In this document: piece by piece, positions 8,953 to 40,765 of the stretch
Position numbering within the stretch: position 1 is the stretch's first letter
How the letters are laid out: every line of letters begins with the position of its first letter
Assembly: GCF_034720595.1 (NCBI RefSeq)
Contig: NZ_JAYESJ010000001.1
Span: forward strand, 2,754,001-2,818,000
Length of the DNA: 64,000 nt
Direction of reading: 5' to 3'
Origin: Rhizobium sp. CC-YZS058
GTDB lineage: Bacteria > Pseudomonadota > Alphaproteobacteria > Rhizobiales > Rhizobiaceae
The notes under the pieces: generated by a model
What the model was told of the DNA's origin: nothing
Databases searched by the model: none
The model's input: only the letters and a program-made list of their open reading frames with translations
Translations under genes and position numbers: made by a program

Positions 8953-9729
8953 ATGAGCCAGGACACCAAGACTTCCCTTCGCCTCGATCAGCTGCTGTTG
9001 ATGAAAGGCCTCGTCGCCAGCCGCGCCCGCGCGCGCGACGCCATTCAGCGCGGCACGGTCACGATCGACGGCCGCGTGGTCACCAAGCCAAGCGCCAGCG
9101 TCGCGGAAGATGCACGTATCGAGATCGACGATCCCGCCCAGCCCTATGTGTCCCGTGCGGCGCTGAAGCTCCGCGCCGGGCTCGACCATTTCGGCCTGTC
9201 CGCCGAGGGGCTGGATTGTCTCGACATCGGTGCCTCGACCGGCGGCTTTACCGAGGTGCTGCTGGAAGCCGGTGCTGCCCATGTGATCGCCATCGATGTC
9301 GGCCACGGCCAGTTCCACCCGCGCCTGGAGGCCGATCCGCGTGTGACGAGCCTCGAAGGCGTCAATGCCCGTGCGCTGGAGGAAGACCAGCTCGATGGCC
9401 GGTCGATCGGCATGATCGTCTCCGATGTCTCCTTCATTTCTCTGCGGCTGGCCCTGCCACCGGCGCTGGAAATGGCGGAGCCGGGCGCTCACTGCCTGCT
9501 GCTGGTCAAGCCGCAATTCGAGGCGGGCCGCGAGGCGATCAGCAAGGCCGGTCTTTTGAAGGCGCCGGAGACTGCGCCCGACGTGGCGCGCAGCCTTGAG
9601 ATCTGGCTGACAGAGGACATGGGCTGGAAAAGTCTCGGCCTCATCCCCTCCCCGATTGCCGGCGGCGACGGCAATGTCGAGTTCCTCCTCGCCGGCCGCA
9701 AACCCGAGATCGACGAGGACGCCGAATGA
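8953..9729 (+). CDS. tlyA: TlyA-family rRNA methyltransferase
   Basis: A 258-residue protein with an N-terminal S4 RNA-binding domain (RLDQLLLMKGLVASRARARD, about residues 9-70) and a Rossmann methyltransferase domain of the FtsJ type with the SAM loop LDIGASTGGFTEVLL. In mycobacteria TlyA 2'-O-methylates 16S and 23S rRNA; older annotations call it haemolysin A. The ATG at 8953 is chosen for its GAAGAGGAG ribosome site. The stop overlaps the next methyltransferase start by 4 nt (ATGA), so both RNA modifiers are translationally coupled. In many rhizobia this pair also lies downstream of dxs, as here. Confidence 0.92.
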   Translation: MSQDTKTSLRLDQLLLMKGLVASRARARDAIQRGTVTIDGRVVTKPSASVAEDARIEIDDPAQPYVSRAALKLRAGLDHFGLSAEGLDCLDIGASTGGFTEVLLEAGAAHVIAIDVGHGQFHPRLEADPRVTSLEGVNARALEEDQLDGRSIGMIVSDVSFISLRLALPPALEMAEPGAHCLLLVKPQFEAGREAISKAGLLKAPETAPDVARSLEIWLTEDMGWKSLGLIPSPIAGGDGNVEFLLAGRKPEIDEDAE

Positions 9730-10979
9730 GCGCCGAAACGCTGCGGATCGACCGCCTGGCGCCGCAGGGCGACGGCATGGTCGCAACGCCCGAAGGTCGG
9801 GTCTATGTGCCGTTCACGCTGCCTGGCGAGCTGGCGAGCCTCGCGGTGACCAAACAGCGTGGCACAGTGATGGCGCTGCTCGAAACCTCGCCGGACCGGG
9901 TCGAGCCGCCCTGCCGCCATTTCGGTCCGCACGGCGAAAACGGCACCTGCGGCGGCTGCAGCCTGCAGCATGCAGGCGATGCGCTCTATCATGGGTTCAA
10001 GCGGCAACTGGTCGTGGATGCGCTGGCGCAGCGCGGCATCGAGACGGAGGTCGCGCCCCTGGTCCTGGCCCGGCCCGGCGAACGCCGGCGGGTGACCATG
10101 ACGGCGCGACGCACCGAGAAGGCGATGCTGCTCGGCTATAACCAGGCGGAGAGCCACCACATCGTCTCGGTCGTCGAATGTCCGATCGCCAGCCCCGGCA
10201 TCGTGTCGAGGCTGAACGCGATCCGACGCATTGCGGCGGCGCTGTCGAGCGATGCCGACCCCTTTCGTATCACCATTCTGGAAACGGCGGTCGGTCTCGA
10301 TCTTTCGGTCGATGGGCTGAAACCCCTGTCCGACCGCCATCGGCGGCATGTGGTCGATACGGTGCTCGGCGTCCCCGGGCTCGCCCGGCTCGCCGTCGCC
10401 GGCGAAATCCTGGTCGAGCCGGTTCGCCCCGTCCTCGATTTCGGCGGCGTGGCGGTTTCGCCGCCGCCGGGCGGCTTTGCCCAGGCAAGCCGGATTGCCG
10501 AAGCGGCAATGGCGGATCTCGTTCTTGCCCATCTCGGCAAGGCCAAGCGCGTGGCCGATCTCTTCGCCGGCTCCGGCACCTTTTCCCTGCGGATTGCCCG
10601 CCAGGCGCGCGTGCACGCCGTGGAAGGCGACGCGAAGGCTTTGCAGGCGCTCGACAGCGCAGCACGGGCCATGCAGGGCCTGAAGCCGGTGACGGTGGAG
10701 AAGCGCGACCTTTTCCGACGCCCCCTGATGGTCTCCGAGCTCAAGGCCTTCGATGCCGTCGTCTTCGATCCGCCCCGCGCCGGTGCCGAGGCACAGTGCG
10801 AGGACCTTGCCCGCTCCGCCGTGCCGATCATTGCCGCCGTCTCCTGCAACCCGGTCACGCTCGCACGCGATCTTTCCGTCCTCATCAAGGGCGGCTACCG
10901 CGTCACCTCGGTCACGCCGATCGACCAGTTTCTCTGGTCCAGCCATGTCGAAGCCGTCGCCACGCTCGTGCGGGACTGA
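9726..10979 (+). CDS. TrmA/RlmD-type 5-methyluridine RNA methyltransferase
   Basis: A 417-residue class I SAM methyltransferase. It has an N-terminal TRAM-like part, an iron-sulphur cluster region with CRHFGPHGENGTCGGCSLQH (Cys-x10-CGGC), the SAM-binding segment DLFAGSGTFSLRIA, DPPRAGA, and the catalytic SCNP cysteine loop. These are the hallmarks of RumA/RlmD and RlmC enzymes that methylate U1939 or U747 of 23S rRNA through a covalent Cys-uracil intermediate; which uridine is modified cannot be told. It is coupled to tlyA by ATGA overlap. The intergenic region after it holds the first micropeptide element. Confidence 0.9.
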   Translation: MSAETLRIDRLAPQGDGMVATPEGRVYVPFTLPGELASLAVTKQRGTVMALLETSPDRVEPPCRHFGPHGENGTCGGCSLQHAGDALYHGFKRQLVVDALAQRGIETEVAPLVLARPGERRRVTMTARRTEKAMLLGYNQAESHHIVSVVECPIASPGIVSRLNAIRRIAAALSSDADPFRITILETAVGLDLSVDGLKPLSDRHRRHVVDTVLGVPGLARLAVAGEILVEPVRPVLDFGGVAVSPPPGGFAQASRIAEAAMADLVLAHLGKAKRVADLFAGSGTFSLRIARQARVHAVEGDAKALQALDSAARAMQGLKPVTVEKRDLFRRPLMVSELKAFDAVVFDPPRAGAEAQCEDLARSAVPIIAAVSCNPVTLARDLSVLIKGGYRVTSVTPIDQFLWSSHVEAVATLVRD

Positions 10980-11031
10980 CACCAGCGTTTCCTTTTATTA
11001 GGAATTTACGATAGACTCTCGGCGTGATCGT

Positions 11032-11248
11032 CAGAAGCAGCATGCGCTGTGCCAGCCGGCGCGTCGGGGAGGATAAGCCGCCCCGACCTCAGGCAAAGGC
11101 TTTGCCGGTCACCAGGAGTGGCGCCAATGGGTTTCTTTCCCATCAGCATCACGCTTCAGGTGAAGAAAACCCGCACGGGCTGGGTTGCCACCGTGCGGGT
11201 CACATTCTTCATCTAAGCGTCGGCGGCCGGAGTAGCCCCTCCGGCCGC
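11032..11248 (+). other. Structured micropeptide element, copy 1
   Basis: First of three related units of about 217 nt. In order: conserved head CAGAAGCAG; leader hairpin (arms 11063-11069 and 11081-11087, GTCGGGG/CCCCGAC); a small GGCAAA/TTTGCC hairpin; Shine-Dalgarno AGGAG; the 29-codon frame at 11127; an in-frame stem (ACCCGCACGG 11169-11178 with CCGTGCGGGT 11191-11200); and right after the stop a 10-bp hairpin (11223-11232 with 11239-11248) that could end transcription, although no T-run follows. An AT-rich stretch just upstream (about 10990-11020) could hold the promoter. I recognise no named RNA family. Confidence 0.7.
11127..11216 (+). CDS. 29-residue cationic micropeptide, copy 1
   Basis: Begins MGFFPISITL and ends TVRVTFFI. 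It shares 18 of 29 positions with both other copies: the first ten residues, KTRT, one Trp and VRV. All three have four basic and no acidic residues, exactly 29 codons and a TAA stop. Alternating hydrophobic and polar residues on both sides of KTRTGW suggest a two-stranded beta-hairpin. AGGAG lies 10 nt before the ATG. Between copies 1 and 3 the first ten codons differ only at silent positions (Gly2, Pro5, Leu10), which supports translation. Function unknown; a small toxin or membrane-active peptide is a guess from charge and size. It is too short for most gene callers. Confidence 0.65.
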   Translation: MGFFPISITLQVKKTRTGWVATVRVTFFI

Positions 11249-11426
11249 TGCTCGTGCAGACTAGCCGATCCAAAGCCACGAGACAAGACAGCGCATTCCT
11301 ATTCTCTAAATTAACAAGAGCGGCAAACACGAAGGATCGCGGTGTTACCGAGACGATCTTCCACGCCTACGATCAGTCAACACTTTTATTTTAGATGTTT
11401 CGCATTTACGGTCGCATGGTGGCAGG

Positions 11427-11646
11427 CAGAAGCAGCATGCGCTGTGCCAGCCGGCGCGTCGGGGAGGATAAGCCGCCCCGACCTCAGGCAAAGGCTTTGT
11501 CGGTCACCAGGAGTGGCGCCTATGGGCTTCTTTCCCATCAGCATCACGCTTCGGATTCAGAAAACCCGCACGAGCTGGATCATCACCGTGCGGGTCAACT
11601 TTCTGATCTAAGCGTCGCCGGCCGGAGTGAGCGCTCCGGTCGGCGA
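11427..11646 (+). other. Structured micropeptide element, copy 2
   Basis: A tandem copy exactly 395 nt after copy 1 with no insertions or deletions up to the stop. The 95-nt leader differs from copy 1 at only two positions, while the 90-nt frame differs at fifteen. The leader hairpin is identical. The terminal hairpin is longer than in copy 1 (arms 11615-11627 and 11634-11646, 13 bp with one G-U pair). The sequence ahead of it (about 11380-11410) is AT-rich, as before the other copies. Confidence 0.7.
11522..11611 (+). CDS. 29-residue cationic micropeptide, copy 2
   Basis: Same N-terminus MGFFPISITL as copies 1 and 3, then a diverged half ending TVRVNFLI. Compared with copy 1, Arg has moved from position 13 side to position 11 (QVKK versus RIQK), leaving the net charge of +4 unchanged. 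Eight of ten changed codons alter the residue, yet hydrophobic positions stay hydrophobic. The GGAG ribosome site and TAA stop are kept. An in-frame extension upstream exists but lacks a start with a ribosome site. Function unknown. Confidence 0.65.
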   Translation: MGFFPISITLRIQKTRTSWIITVRVNFLI

Positions 11647-11708
11647 GCCTGAAGAATAAGTTCATCGTCTGATGTTTGCAAGATCGTTTATCGGCACGCG
11701 CTGATGGA

Positions 11709-12626
11709 TCAATCGACGATGGGTTTGAGCGCGGCGGCGAGATGATCGAAAACGGCGCGCAGGCGGGCGCTGCGGGGAAGATCATCGTGGGCGACGAGCC
11801 AGAGCGGCAGGGTCGCGACGGTGATGTCCGGCAGGATCCGCACGAGGGTCTCATCCCGCTGCGCGAGATGAACCAGCATGGGTCCGATGCCGATGCCGGC
11901 GCGAATTGCGGCGCTCTGCGCCGGCAGCGAGGCGGAGCGGAACCCGACATCGGATTTGCGCAGCGGCACCTGATACTGCCGGCCGAAAGCGACCGCGCGG
12001 CTGCCCTCTTCCTCGCCGATGGCGCGGTGACCGAGAAGGTCGGCGGGGACGAGCGGAACACCGCGTCCAGTGCGCTCCAGATAGGCGCGGCTGGCATAAA
12101 GCCCGAGAGAGACCGCGCCGAGGCGGCGCGTGATCAGGTCCGGCTGATCGGGCGGGGCGAAGCGCACGGCAATATCGGCGTCCCGGCGCAAAAGGTTGTC
12201 GACCACGTCGCTGACGAGAAGCTCGATCTCCAGATCCGGATGAGTCGCCAGCAGCGGCGCGATGATGACCGGCAGGACATGGATGCCGAGGATCTGGCTT
12301 GCCGTGATCCGCACCGTGCCGCTGACGCCGGCCGGAGTGGCGCTCAGCGACGTCATGAACTGTGTCACCGCCCGATCGAGAGCCTCCGCCCGCTCGAACA
12401 GTGCCGCTGCCTGCGCGGTGGGGCGAAGGCCGCTGGCGGTCCGGTCGAAGAGCACCTCGCCAACGATGGCTTCCAGCCGCCTGATCTGACGACCGACGGT
12501 CGGCTGGGTCGTCCTGAGCAGGCCGGCGGCGCGGGTGAGATTGCCGGTCTGCATCACGGCCGTGAAGGCGCGGATCAGGTCCCAGTCGAGAGAACCGAGA
12601 TAATGGGGAAGATCAGTGCTTGTCAT
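11709..12626 (-). CDS. LysR-family transcriptional regulator
   Basis: A 305-residue regulator. The N-terminal winged helix-turn-helix is clear (LDWDLIRAFTAVMQTGNLTRAAGLLRTTQPTVGRQIRRLE, read in parts, about residues 10-60), followed by the LysR substrate-binding fold. ATG at 12626 is chosen; ATG at 12638 is in frame and lies within the inverted repeat described nearby. The gene is divergent from the ABA4-like gene 91 nt away, and LysR proteins often control the divergent neighbour, so that pair is a candidate target. No inducer can be named. Confidence 0.88.
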   Translation of the reverse strand: MTSTDLPHYLGSLDWDLIRAFTAVMQTGNLTRAAGLLRTTQPTVGRQIRRLEAIVGEVLFDRTASGLRPTAQAAALFERAEALDRAVTQFMTSLSATPAGVSGTVRITASQILGIHVLPVIIAPLLATHPDLEIELLVSDVVDNLLRRDADIAVRFAPPDQPDLITRRLGAVSLGLYASRAYLERTGRGVPLVPADLLGHRAIGEEEGSRAVAFGRQYQVPLRKSDVGFRSASLPAQSAAIRAGIGIGPMLVHLAQRDETLVRILPDITVATLPLWLVAHDDLPRSARLRAVFDHLAAALKPIVD

Positions 12627-12632
12627 GCGCTG

Positions 12633-12647
12633 ATGCATGGCCTGCAT
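12633..12647. promoter_or_regulatory. Inverted repeat in the LysR/ABA4-like intergenic region
   Basis: ATGCA-TGGCC-TGCAT, a 5-bp inverted repeat with T and A separated in the manner of LysR recognition sites, followed by a further GCAT. It lies just upstream of the LysR start in the divergent promoter region. It could be the autoregulatory site; this is inference from position and symmetry only. Confidence 0.3.
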
Positions 12648-12717
12648 GCATATTCTGTCAAGTGCCAAACGCTTTCGTCTAGGCTAGCCTGAAACACTTC
12701 TTTTCGATCGAGGGTTC

Positions 12718-37706: not shown

Positions 37707-38972
37707 ATGAAGGTTCTTTTGATTGGATCGGGTGGACGCGAGCACGCCTTGGCTTGGAAGATCGCCCAGTCGCCCCAGCTCACCCGCCTGTACGTTGCAC
37801 CGGGCAATCCCGGCATGGCCGATGTCGCCGAGTTGGTGGCGCTCGACAGCACCGACCATGCGGCGGTTGTAACCTTCTGCCGCGAGACGGGGATCGAGTT
37901 CGTGGTCGTCGGCCCCGAGGCGCCGCTGGTCGCCGGGCTGGCGGATGATCTGCGCGCGGCCGGCCTCGCCGTTTTCGGTCCCTCCGCCGCCGCTGCCCAG
38001 TTGGAAGGATCGAAAGGCTTTACCAAGGATCTCTGCGCCCGCCACGGCATCCCGACCGGCGCCTATCGCCGCTTTACGACGGAAGCGCCGGCGCTTGCCT
38101 ATCTTGCCGAGGTCGGCGCGCCGATCGTCGTCAAGGCGGACGGGCTGGCGGCCGGCAAGGGCGTCACCGTGGCGATGACGCGCGAGGAGGCCGAGGCAGC
38201 CGTGCGCGACTGCTTCTCCGGCTCCTTCGGCGCTGCCGGCGCGGAGGTGGTGATCGAGGCGTTTCTCGACGGCGAGGAGGCGAGCTTCTTCTGCCTCTGC
38301 GACGGCCGGACGGCGCTGGCCCTCGGTTCGGCGCAGGACCACAAGCGGGTCGGAGACGGCGATACCGGCCCGAACACGGGTGGCATGGGCGCCTATTCCC
38401 CCGCGCCGGTGATGAGCGAGGCGATGGTGGCGCGGACGATGGACGAGATCATTCTCCCCACCATCCGCGGCATGGCCGCCGACGGCCACCCCTTCACCGG
38501 CGTGCTCTTTGCCGGGCTGATGATCACGGCCAAGGGCCCTGAACTGATCGAATACAATGTCCGCTTCGGCGACCCGGAATGCCAGGTGCTGATGATGCGC
38601 CTGGACAGCGATCTGCTGCCCATCCTGCTTGCCGCCGCCACCGGAAGGCTCGATCAGGTGGAGGCGGTCTGGCGCGACGAGACCGCCCTGACGGTGGTCC
38701 TCGCTTCGAAGGGCTATCCCGGTGCCTATGCCAAGTCGACGCCGATCCGCGCGCTTCCCGCCAACGACACGACCACCCGCGTCTTCCAGGCGGGAACGGC
38801 CTTGGAGGAAGATCAACTCGTTGCGGTCGGCGGACGGGTTCTCAATGTCACCGCCATCGGTCCCGATGTCGCCACGGCGCGCGCGCGGGCTTACGAGGCG
38901 GTGGACAAGGTCGACTGGGAAAACGGGTTCTGCCGGCGGGATATCGGCTGGCGGGCGCTCACCCGCGGCTGA
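37707..38972 (+). CDS. purD: Phosphoribosylamine-glycine ligase
   Basis: A 421-residue ATP-grasp enzyme making glycinamide ribonucleotide in purine synthesis. It begins [18 protein letters not shown] and contains [28 protein letters not shown] and the signature RFGDPECQ. All parts are present and the length is normal. Purine genes are usually scattered in rhizobia, and none other is visible here. It is preceded by an AT-rich promoter region and followed by the HPE1-like gene 151 nt downstream. Confidence 0.96.
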
Positions 38973-39767: not shown

Positions 39768-39954
39768 GTGCCTACGAAACGTCCTGCGGCCTGAAAGGAC
39801 GATGCAGCGCGCTGCTGCGCCCCGTGCGCGTCAGGCCAGCCGCGCCCATGCCGCCGGCTCTCCCGGCACATGGAAGATGATCGAGATCGTCCGGCCGCTC
39901 GACAGTCTCTTCCAATATATTCGTTTTTTCTGATATGATAAGCCTGTCGTGGGG
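39768..39954. other. Intergenic stretch before micropeptide copy 3
   Basis: About 190 nt without a gene that I can support. Its end (39912-39942) is AT-rich with TCGTTTTTTC and TGATATGATA, which could be the promoter of the micropeptide element. Confidence 0.45.
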
Positions 39955-40171
39955 CGGAAGCAGATGCGCCGCGCCGGCCGGCGTCTCGGGGATGATCAGC
40001 CTCCCCGACCTCGGCGAGGGCTTTGCTCTCGATCCGGAGTGACGCGGATGGGATTCTTTCCAATCAGCATCACGCTGACGATCAGGAAAACCCGCACGGG
40101 CTGGTATCTCGCCGTGCGGGTAACAGTCCTGGTCTAAGCGAAGGGCAATCGGGGCGAGCACCCCGGTTGCC
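39955..40171 (+). other. Structured micropeptide element, copy 3
   Basis: Third, more diverged copy, 28.9 kb from the first two. It has the same order: head CGGAAGCAG, leader hairpin (TCGGGGA 39986-39992 with TCCCCGA 40002-40008), CCGGAG ribosome site, 29-codon frame, in-frame stem (40090-40099 with 40112-40121), and a terminal hairpin of wholly different sequence but the same shape (GGCAATCGGGG 40144-40154 with CCCCGGTTGCC 40161-40171). Kept pairing with changed bases argues for selection on RNA structure. The leader is 2 nt shorter than in copies 1 and 2. Confidence 0.7.
40048..40137 (+). CDS. 29-residue cationic micropeptide, copy 3
   Basis: Starts MGFFPISITL like the other two and ends AVRVTVLV. 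Compared with copy 1, the first ten codons carry three silent changes and no replacement. It has four basic and no acidic residues (Arg13, Lys14, Arg16, Arg24). CCGGAG lies 9 nt before the ATG and TAA closes the frame at the same length. In this copy an upstream ATG (39964) is in frame and would give a 57-codon peptide fusion, but that is not so in copies 1 and 2. Function unknown. Confidence 0.65.
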   Translation: MGFFPISITLTIRKTRTGWYLAVRVTVLV

Positions 40172-40204
40172 ACTCTGGGAGCGTACATCGGCAAGCGGTA
40201 AAAT

Positions 40205-40765
40205 TCAAGACGGGAGGCCGGAGAGCCCTTCGGCGCCGTCCCCCGCGCCCGGTTCTCCATCGATCTGCCGCGCCAGCCTGTCGATCTGCCGCGCCAGAAT
40301 GTCGATCTGATGGTCGGCGAAGACCTCGATCCCGTGGCGGCGCAGGAGAGCTGCCGTCACACCCTCGCCGCTGCGCCTCAGGCCGGCAAACTGGCCATCA
40401 TAGATCCGGGTCGAGCCGCAGGAGGGGCTGCCATCGATCAAGAGCGCGAACCGGCACCCGCTGCGTTGCGCCTCCGCCAGAGCATTCTGCGCAGCGCGCA
40501 GGAACAGGTCGGTGACGTCCCTGCCGCCCGCCTCGAAAACCTGCGCCGATTGGCGCAGCACATCGGCTCCGCTCGCCGCCGCGATCTCCGCCGGCGGGCG
40601 CGGCACCGGCATGCCGGCCGAGCATTCCGGACAGAAGGGCACCAGACGTCCCTCCTCCAGCCAGCGCGCCAGCAGCGGATGATCCAGCGGCTTGGCGCGC
40701 CCGTCATAGCGCACGGCCGCCCCCATCAGGCAGGCGCTGACGAGGATCCGGTCGCCGGCGCCCAT
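40205..40765 (-). CDS. DUF523 family protein
   Basis: A 186-residue protein beginning with RILVSACLMGAAVRYDG and containing FCPECSAGMPVPRPPAEI and LIDGSPSCGSTRIYDG, the three Cys-bearing motifs of DUF523 (YbbK-like). The cysteines could bind an iron-sulphur cluster or metal; function unproven. It ends with a repeated IDILARQIDRLARQID segment, a short tandem repeat that extends the normal length. It starts 6 nt after the glyS stop on the same strand, so it is the last gene of the glyQ-glyS run. Confidence 0.85.
   Translation of the reverse strand: MGAGDRILVSACLMGAAVRYDGRAKPLDHPLLARWLEEGRLVPFCPECSAGMPVPRPPAEIAAASGADVLRQSAQVFEAGGRDVTDLFLRAAQNALAEAQRSGCRFALLIDGSPSCGSTRIYDGQFAGLRRSGEGVTAALLRRHGIEVFADHQIDILARQIDRLARQIDGEPGAGDGAEGLSGLPS

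Follow-up and report, generated by a model that had tools for sequence, protein, structure and literature searches.

The window analysed here, a 64,000-nucleotide stretch of Rhizobium sp. CC-YZS058 DNA, carries three open reading frames that each encode a 29-residue peptide starting with MGFFPISITL and that each have AGGAG or GGAG, a Shine-Dalgarno sequence, 5' of the ATG. The three peptides share 18 of 29 positions, and each contains four Lys or Arg residues and no Asp or Glu. Over the first ten codons, copies 1 and 3 differ only by silent changes (GGT/GGA, CCC/CCA and CTT/CTG). These properties had been reported in an initial annotation of the window and were all confirmed. Alignment of the copies showed that the similar DNA begins about 100 nt 5' of the ORF and ends about 60 nt 3' of it, spanning a hairpin after the stop codon; the unit is therefore an element of about 250 nt and not the ORF alone. 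The parts of each element are listed in Table 1. Pfam assigned the neighboring genes to a uracil-5 methyltransferase, a LysR-type regulator, a phosphoribosylglycinamide synthetase and a 2-thiouracil desulfurase family (window 9726-10979, 11709-12668, 37707-38972 and 40205-40765). Since these are chromosomal genes, the window copies occupy ordinary intergenic gaps. The genes that follow copy 2 (LysR-type regulator) and copy 3 (2-thiouracil desulfurase-family protein) both lie on the strand opposite to the element.

Table 1. Observed and predicted features of the three elements, in window coordinates.
Feature	Position	Strand	Basis or remarks
Copy 1 pseudoknotted 5' leader (predicted 5' UTR, to the base before ATG)	11023..11126	+	R1 97.9 bits, E 8.5e-21 (own genome); family covariation
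Copy 1 Shine-Dalgarno AGGAG	11114-11118	+	sequence
Copy 1 29-aa peptide ORF, candidate toxin, including stop	11127..11216	+
Copy 1 in-ORF hairpin, candidate antisense terminator	11169..11200	-	U tract opposite A11165-A11168
Copy 1 hairpin 3' of stop (mRNA 3' stem-loop; complement = antisense RNA 5' stem-loop)	11221..11250	+
Copy 1 predicted antisense promoter	11258..11286	-	-10 TAGTCT (11258-11263), -35 TTGTCT (11281-11286), spacer 17; weak by consensus (7/12)
Copy 1 predicted antisense RNA (candidate antitoxin), ~90 nt	11162..11251	-	ends placed from promoter and terminator
Copy 2 structured 5' leader	11418..11521	+	R1 97.6 bits; AGGAG at 11509-11513
Copy 2 29-aa peptide ORF, including stop	11522..11611	+
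Copy 2 in-ORF hairpin (candidate antisense terminator)	11564..11595	-
Copy 2 hairpin 3' of stop	11615..11646	+
Copy 2 predicted antisense promoter	11653..11681	-	-10 TATTCT (11653-11658), -35 TTGCAA (11676-11681), spacer 17 (8/12)
Copy 3 structured 5' leader	39945..40047	+	R1 83.8 bits; CCGGAGTG = Shine-Dalgarno region at 40034-40041
Copy 3 29-aa peptide ORF, including stop	40048..40137	+
Copy 3 in-ORF hairpin (candidate antisense terminator)	40090..40121	-
Copy 3 hairpin 3' of stop	40144..40171	+
Copy 3 3' tail CACTCTGG	40171..40178	+	8-base complement (one G-U) of CCGGAGTG; paired in minimum-energy fold; duplex -14.1 kcal/mol, strongest 5% of 102 elements
Copy 3 predicted antisense promoter	40180..40208	-	-10 TACGCT (40180-40185), -35 TTGAAT (40203-40208), spacer 17 (7/12)

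In a search of the whole genome, copies 2 and 3 matched copy 1 at E = 4.7e-10 and 3.9e-9, a likeness that exceeds chance. Five intact copies were identified in the genome, at C1 2765127, 2765522 and 2794048 (the window copies), 1574942 and 2334766. A broken sixth copy (L006, C1:728639-728707) retains a recognisable start and SITL, after which the frame diverges and has no stop; the covariance model described below finds no leader there. Using a single peptide as query, 12 of 61 relatives, including the genome itself, matched at E <=0.01. A 25-row profile gave matches at E <=0.001 in 93 of 394 family genomes, which represent 32 of 109 genera, with up to 13 matches in one genome. At the level of the order, 20 of 397 genomes (14 of 142 genera) matched at E <=1e-4, a set that includes the genome itself and some members of its family, and a class-wide sample of 337 genomes gave no match beyond the genome itself. 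A DNA-pattern scan of named genomes returned at least 119 stretches, mostly from Rhizobiaceae and their relatives among the matches listed.

The element is also carried by mobile replicons. Matches were found in 36 of 72,556 plasmid records, with hosts that include Sinorhizobium, Roseibium/Labrenzia, Agrobacterium, Microvirga, Rhizobium, Shinella, Ensifer and Ancylobacter, and annotation was absent at all 36 places in a plasmid gene table that is incomplete by its own description. Thirteen of 50,697 phage records matched, 12 at places that carry no annotation and one at a 'hypothetical protein', and 25 stretches in IMG/VR fit a degenerate pattern. Copies are often arranged in tandem with a spacing of about 306-403 bp. 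Four-copy arrays occur in L085 (306 bp spacing) and L269 (about 367 bp), with N-termini that are near-identical and C-termini that diverge. On a freshwater phage contig (MW462191, L035), where tblastn gives three places, the usual hairpins of the leader by the first copy are replaced by a different insert. In phage POI1126 (L033, 3882-3995), annotated gene 29 covers the noncoding leader and the adjoining real peptide ORF is unannotated; the 37-codon ORF annotated over the leader is probably spurious. Together these searches define a family that is large and essentially unannotated.

For comparisons across the family, 188 elements were extracted and 35 were dropped because the start was not ATG, GTG or TTG, the flank was short or the stop was misplaced, which left 153 elements and a nonredundant set of 102. 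The DNA pattern, which supplied 119 of 178 loci, covers codons 14-25 and fixes part of a stem within the ORF. Thus, where this is critical, statements about the stem use 50 pattern-independent elements (37 nonredundant).

The three window frames appear to be genuine coding sequences of one family, as judged by their pattern of substitution. Between 42 pairs of 80-95% identity, pN/pS over codons 2-14 was 0.24 in frame and 1.14 and 1.77 in frames +1 and +2. Fifty-seven more distant pairs gave 0.45, 0.92 and 1.31 over the same codons. In the same 42 pairs, the hairpin codons 15-25 gave 0.57 in frame and 1.18 and 1.35 in the shifted frames. At codons 26-29 the values were 1.0 in frame and 0.76 and 0.90 shifted, with no sign of in-frame constraint on the C-terminus. 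Additionally, the 50 pattern-independent elements end in any of the three stop codons (TAA 23, TAG 16, TGA 11), the position of which is nearly constant, and Pro5 is encoded by all four Pro codons. Codons 15-25 also hold a near-invariant RNA stem, and part of the identity at 18 of 29 positions therefore reflects constraint on RNA and not on the peptide. Frameshifts or stop codons in homologues, which the initial annotation had named as evidence against a peptide, were found in a minority only. Besides the decayed copies L006 and L028, at least 5 of the 88 leaders checked precede a visibly broken frame.

The predicted peptides of the 102 nonredundant elements are 28-33 residues long, well within the limit of 60 residues for type I toxins, with the codon test pointing to their translation, and have a net charge of +2 to +8. 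In the 83 peptides of 29 residues, hydrophobic residues occupy positions 6, 8, 10, 12 and 21, 23, 25, 27 on either side of a basic KTR turn. An AlphaFold2 model of a 30-residue relative (37 rows) placed strands at residues 6-14 and 19-27 with a mean pLDDT of 73.4 and a pTM of 0.24. This period-2 hydrophobicity and the model support the amphipathic beta-hairpin suggested in the initial annotation. No hydrophobic alpha-helical transmembrane segment was predicted, given the alternating hydrophobicity and the model of the relative, and we did not file the peptide under the membrane-associated (helical) type I toxins. Five peptides searched against Pfam, NCBIfam and PHROGs, and three against PADLOC, gave no match above cut-off; the best matches below cut-off were to POTRA (E 0.053, 14.1 bits against a cut-off of 26) and to one PHROG (E 0.56). 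No family member was found in the PDB. Membership in a known protein family was rejected on the results from these profile libraries and the PDB.

Upstream of the peptide lies a conserved RNA structure. We aligned 54 of 61 selected leaders by sequence with MAFFT, and one-base slips are visible in the first columns of this alignment. The leaders form two hairpins that are closed by pairing between the 5' end and the bases just before the Shine-Dalgarno sequence, and a pseudoknot arises from pairing between the second hairpin's loop and a GGCCU located downstream. Standard pairs make up 88.2% of cells, and 189 changes on both sides of a pair were counted versus 60.0 in shuffled alignments (sd 7.9; 0/500). 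Double changes occur in 21 of 25 pairs, for example at the pseudoknot pair 61-95, which is GC in 32 leaders and AU in 18, and slid controls fall to 38-50% paired. RNAalifold alone recovered 18 leader pairs, 15 of them with compensatory changes, and missed the 5'-end helix. This helix is the least paired part of the leader (77%), partly as a result of the one-base slips. An alignment-independent comparison, which took in the 96 of 102 elements with the needed 5' motif, gave -16.47 kcal/mol for the 5' end with its own pre-Shine-Dalgarno bases versus -11.09 kcal/mol with those of other elements (sd 0.29; 0/2000). The upstream control of this comparison was not significant.

A covariance model of the leader recovered the five intact copies in the genome at E <=3.2e-17 and nothing else below E 1.9. 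Across 151 genomes of the family it identified 90 places in 32 genomes. The peptide follows the leader at 84 of the 88 places checked, and the two remaining places are L018 and L019, which were already known to carry the peptide. At the other four, L273 is damaged, L277 has lost the peptide, and L278 and L280 are weak matches (36.0 and 31.5 bits). A free-standing riboswitch was rejected on this association of leader and peptide. Rfam gave no match at gathering scores over the whole window and none at E <=1 over 10900-11750, and a known RNA family was rejected accordingly. A conserved upstream frame such as mok was also rejected, since the upstream frames differ between copies. The leader segment GGC(C/U)UUGC, present for instance within window 11090-11113, has three possible partners, namely the 5' end, the P3 loop and a GGCAA immediately 5' of it, and these alternative pairings suggest that the leader may switch between exclusive structures.

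The Shine-Dalgarno sequence has a second potential partner at the other end of the element. In most elements CACTCC is found right after the 3' hairpin, with flanks that match those of the Shine-Dalgarno sequence, as in the pairs AAGGAGTG/CACTCCTT of L007 and ATGGAGTG/CACTCCAT of L019. The predicted duplex energy was -9.54 kcal/mol for native combinations versus -8.07 kcal/mol for swapped ones (sd 0.16; 0/2000 permutations), and -5.34 kcal/mol for control 11-mers further downstream. Masking of the ribosome-binding site, a trait of type I systems, is thus predicted by pairing beyond that of swapped controls. Within the genome, copies 3 (-14.1) and 4 (-16.2) show strong pairing and copy 5 (-8.8) is intermediate, whereas copy 1 (-7.6, weaker than 78% of the set) and copy 2 (-6.4, weaker than 91%) pair weakly.

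On the minus strand, a promoter-like signal follows the 3' hairpin. A -35/-10 score of at least 9 of 12 was found in 61% of the 102 elements versus 4.6% of dinucleotide shuffles. The spacer is 17 in 65 of 102 elements, the commonest -10 sequence is TATATT (39 of 102), and the motif WATA-N18-24-CAA is present in 73 of 102 elements versus 2.5% of shuffles. The window copies themselves score 7, 8 and 7, all with a spacer of 17, versus a shuffle mean of 6.7; single copies are therefore unconvincing alone and the case rests on the family. A generic promoter and terminator scan of both strands of 10900-11750 called none. Sense promoters were barely enriched (at least 9 of 12 in 14% of elements versus 6% of shuffles), a weak enrichment on which a classical sense promoter was rejected, and no mRNA terminator was identified when one was looked for.

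Transcription from the minus-strand signal would run into the ORF, where a stem of 6-11 bp, present in 46 of 50 pattern-independent elements, is followed on the minus strand by U residues. The third base of the R16 codon and the third base of codon 23 form C-G in 51 elements and G-C in 49, and are unpaired in one (n = 101). The DNA pattern did not force this complementarity, and the pair is formed in 48 of 49 pattern-independent elements. At R16 the substitution is synonymous, and on the other side of the pair codon 23 encodes V, I or L in the 29-residue set. The U tract comprises only about four U. The Lys of KTRT is encoded by AAA and AAG in a ratio of 76:14 versus 35:30 for other Lys residues of the same peptides (P = 5e-5), and the ratio in long ORFs of the window is 90:465. 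This preference for AAA keeps the U tract on the minus strand.

The direction of mismatches gives some indication of which transcript each stem serves. Departures from Watson-Crick pairing in the core stem of 37 elements comprise 11 A.C, no G.T and one other, and the downstream hairpin shows the opposite, with 97 G.T versus 4 A.C, though the finder used for this hairpin allowed G.T. An A.C mismatch is a wobble on the minus-strand RNA and G.T a wobble on the mRNA. Since 8 of the 11 A.C mismatches occur at one pair (17.2-23.1), where the direction is forced by coding, their excess is suggestive. These data therefore suggest that selection acts on the in-ORF stem through the antisense RNA and on the 3' stem through the mRNA. 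The antisense RNA is predicted from conserved minus-strand signals that resemble a promoter and a terminator.

Each of the copies is, in our view, likely to be a type I toxin-antitoxin-like module. The parts computed for such a module are a coding frame, a covarying leader, Shine-Dalgarno/3' complementarity, a minus-strand promoter-like signal and an in-ORF stem. From these we infer the making of an antisense RNA, the order of events, the processing of the message and the toxicity of the peptide. In our model, the plus strand would yield an mRNA of about 240 nt for a cationic peptide of 28-33 residues, predicted to form an amphipathic beta-hairpin. In the full-length mRNA, base pairing between the 5' end and the pre-Shine-Dalgarno bases would close the pseudoknotted leader and the CACTCC-like 3' tail would pair with the Shine-Dalgarno sequence, and the message is proposed to be silent for these reasons. 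If the 3' tail were trimmed as far as the strong 3' stem-loop, CACTCC would be removed, the Shine-Dalgarno sequence opened and translation of the message allowed. This translatable form would in turn be bound and silenced by an antisense RNA of about 90 nt that starts at the promoter 3' of the ORF and terminates inside the ORF. If the antisense RNA were lost or out-titrated, the peptide would be made and the cell harmed, probably at the membrane.

The initial annotation had offered a type I toxin, a membrane-active peptide or a regulatory small protein as possible roles. Its interpretation is partly supported here. The type I toxin fits best as a candidate, and it is the antisense promoter, the in-ORF antisense terminator, the structured leader and the Shine-Dalgarno/3' pairing, all absent from that annotation, that lead to the toxin-antitoxin reading. 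The same annotation had set conservation of the peptide against conservation of RNA structure alone. Both are conserved in this element, so that choice falls away.

Several known systems share parts of this architecture. In hok/sok, which is plasmid-borne, the 3' end of the mRNA folds back and blocks translation until it is processed, and an antisense RNA serves as the antitoxin. The Ldr/Rdl and Ibs/Sib systems of Escherichia coli encode short peptides in intergenic tandem direct repeats, each with its own antisense RNA. SymE and RalR are larger than 28-33 residues. The rhizobial element resembles hok/sok in its presence on plasmids, in a 3'-end fold-back block and in an antisense antitoxin, the latter two proposed here, and differs in the size and fold of the peptide and in having no conserved overlapping upstream frame. 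With Ldr/Rdl and Ibs/Sib it shares intergenic tandem repeats of a short-peptide gene with a predicted antisense RNA for each; however, those toxins are alpha-helical according to PMC8309996, and their sequence and leader are unrelated within the libraries searched. The same review lists SymE and RalR as type I toxins other than membrane helices, as the rhizobial peptide would be, yet describes them as nucleases of RNA or DNA, whereas the rhizobial peptide has only 28-33 residues.

By architecture, the closest parallel that we drew is to AapA/IsoA, and by this analogy the element probably works in a similar manner. As described in PMC6733600, AapA3/IsoA3 of Helicobacter pylori comprises a 30-residue peptide and an 80-nt antisense RNA; the full-length AapA3 mRNA of 225 nt is silent, a form without the last 35 nt is translated, and the -10 box of the IsoA3 promoter lies within the AapA3 ORF. 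On that account, the two systems have in common a cationic peptide of about 30 residues encoded at several loci per genome, an antisense RNA of about 80-90 nt over the ORF and a full-length mRNA of about 225-240 nt that is predicted to be silent through folding, the two RNAs being predictions in the rhizobial case. In contrast to IsoA3 as described there, the predicted rhizobial antisense promoter is located 3' of the stop codon and not in the ORF, and it is the terminator that lies inside the ORF. Furthermore, AapA1 is helical according to PMC8309996 and the rhizobial peptide is predicted to be beta, the rhizobial leader is pseudoknotted, and the hosts belong to a different class of bacteria. 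Because of the differing promoter and terminator layout, the predicted beta fold and the pseudoknotted leader, we did not file the element as a member of AapA/IsoA. According to PMC12390103, Proteobacteria, Firmicutes and Tenericutes have known type I systems, and that paper adds Cyanobacteria. Among the openly accessible journal articles listed on type I systems in rhizobia or Alphaproteobacteria, we recognised none that describes the element. A paper on the Sinorhizobium small proteome (PMC10117765) does not use the word toxin in its main text and speaks neither for nor against our reading.

Other explanations account for some of these observations. The peptide might be a small protein that is translated but harmless, such as one acting at the membrane or in regulation, with an amount determined by an antisense RNA and the structured leader and with a gene multiplied for dose and not for addiction. 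Such a role would suit a peptide that is conserved together with its leader and predicted to contain no transmembrane helix, and the toxicity of the peptide is something that we infer. We nevertheless regard it as unlikely: occurrence on plasmids and phages, a patchy distribution (93 of 394 genomes in the family), expansion in tandem, copies in decay and two layers of silencing signals are all traits of addiction modules and would be costly for a housekeeping peptide. It is very improbable that the leader is a riboswitch-like element or attenuator, with the peptide as a leader peptide that controls a downstream gene. The covarying pseudoknotted RNA does end at the Shine-Dalgarno sequence, and GGCCUUGC can pair in three alternative ways (with the 5' end, the P3 loop or in a local hairpin), but the same peptide follows 84 of the 88 leaders checked, the window genes after the elements are on the opposite strand, and downstream genes are unrelated among the inspected plasmid and phage copies.

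The strong RNA structure in the leader, the ORF and the 3' region, together with a reduced synonymous rate in codons 15-25, might instead reflect a noncoding repeat or small-RNA family in which the frame is incidental. We give this reading hardly any credence, because the in-frame pN/pS of 0.24 versus 1.14 and 1.77 concerns codons 2-14, which lie outside the stem, and because three stop codons swap at a near-fixed position and four Pro codons are used at position 5. An element that is noncoding RNA only was rejected on the in-frame pN/pS. Cationic amphipathic beta-hairpins occur among some antimicrobial peptides, and a predicted hairpin of this kind with a net charge of +2 to +8 could in principle be a secreted, bacteriocin-like peptide directed against competitors. 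However, the peptide lacks both a signal peptide and a leader peptide, neither a transporter nor an immunity gene is named beside the inspected plasmid and phage copies, and to our knowledge cis-antisense silencing is not usual for bacteriocins, so that this possibility is scarcely believable.

Returning to the toxin-antitoxin reading, we favor, with moderate confidence, the view that the elements form an undescribed type I toxin-antitoxin superfamily of Hyphomicrobiales, resident on chromosomes, plasmids and phages. Such a superfamily would combine a beta-hairpin toxin, an antisense terminator embedded in the toxin codons (KTRT...VRV) and a pseudoknotted leader that, jointly with a 3' anti-Shine-Dalgarno tail, locks translation and releases it. 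If this is true, annotation has overlooked a small gene that is common in rhizobia and in their plasmids and phages. The element would also be a clear example of a single DNA segment whose strands specify different products, one a peptide and the other an RNA terminator, through coordinated synonymous changes (100 of 101 pairs). The Alphaproteobacteria would possess a large type I family whose toxin has a fold that is absent from the membrane-associated toxins covered in the consulted passages of PMC8309996. The stability of plasmids and symbiotic replicons in rhizobia would then become directly testable.
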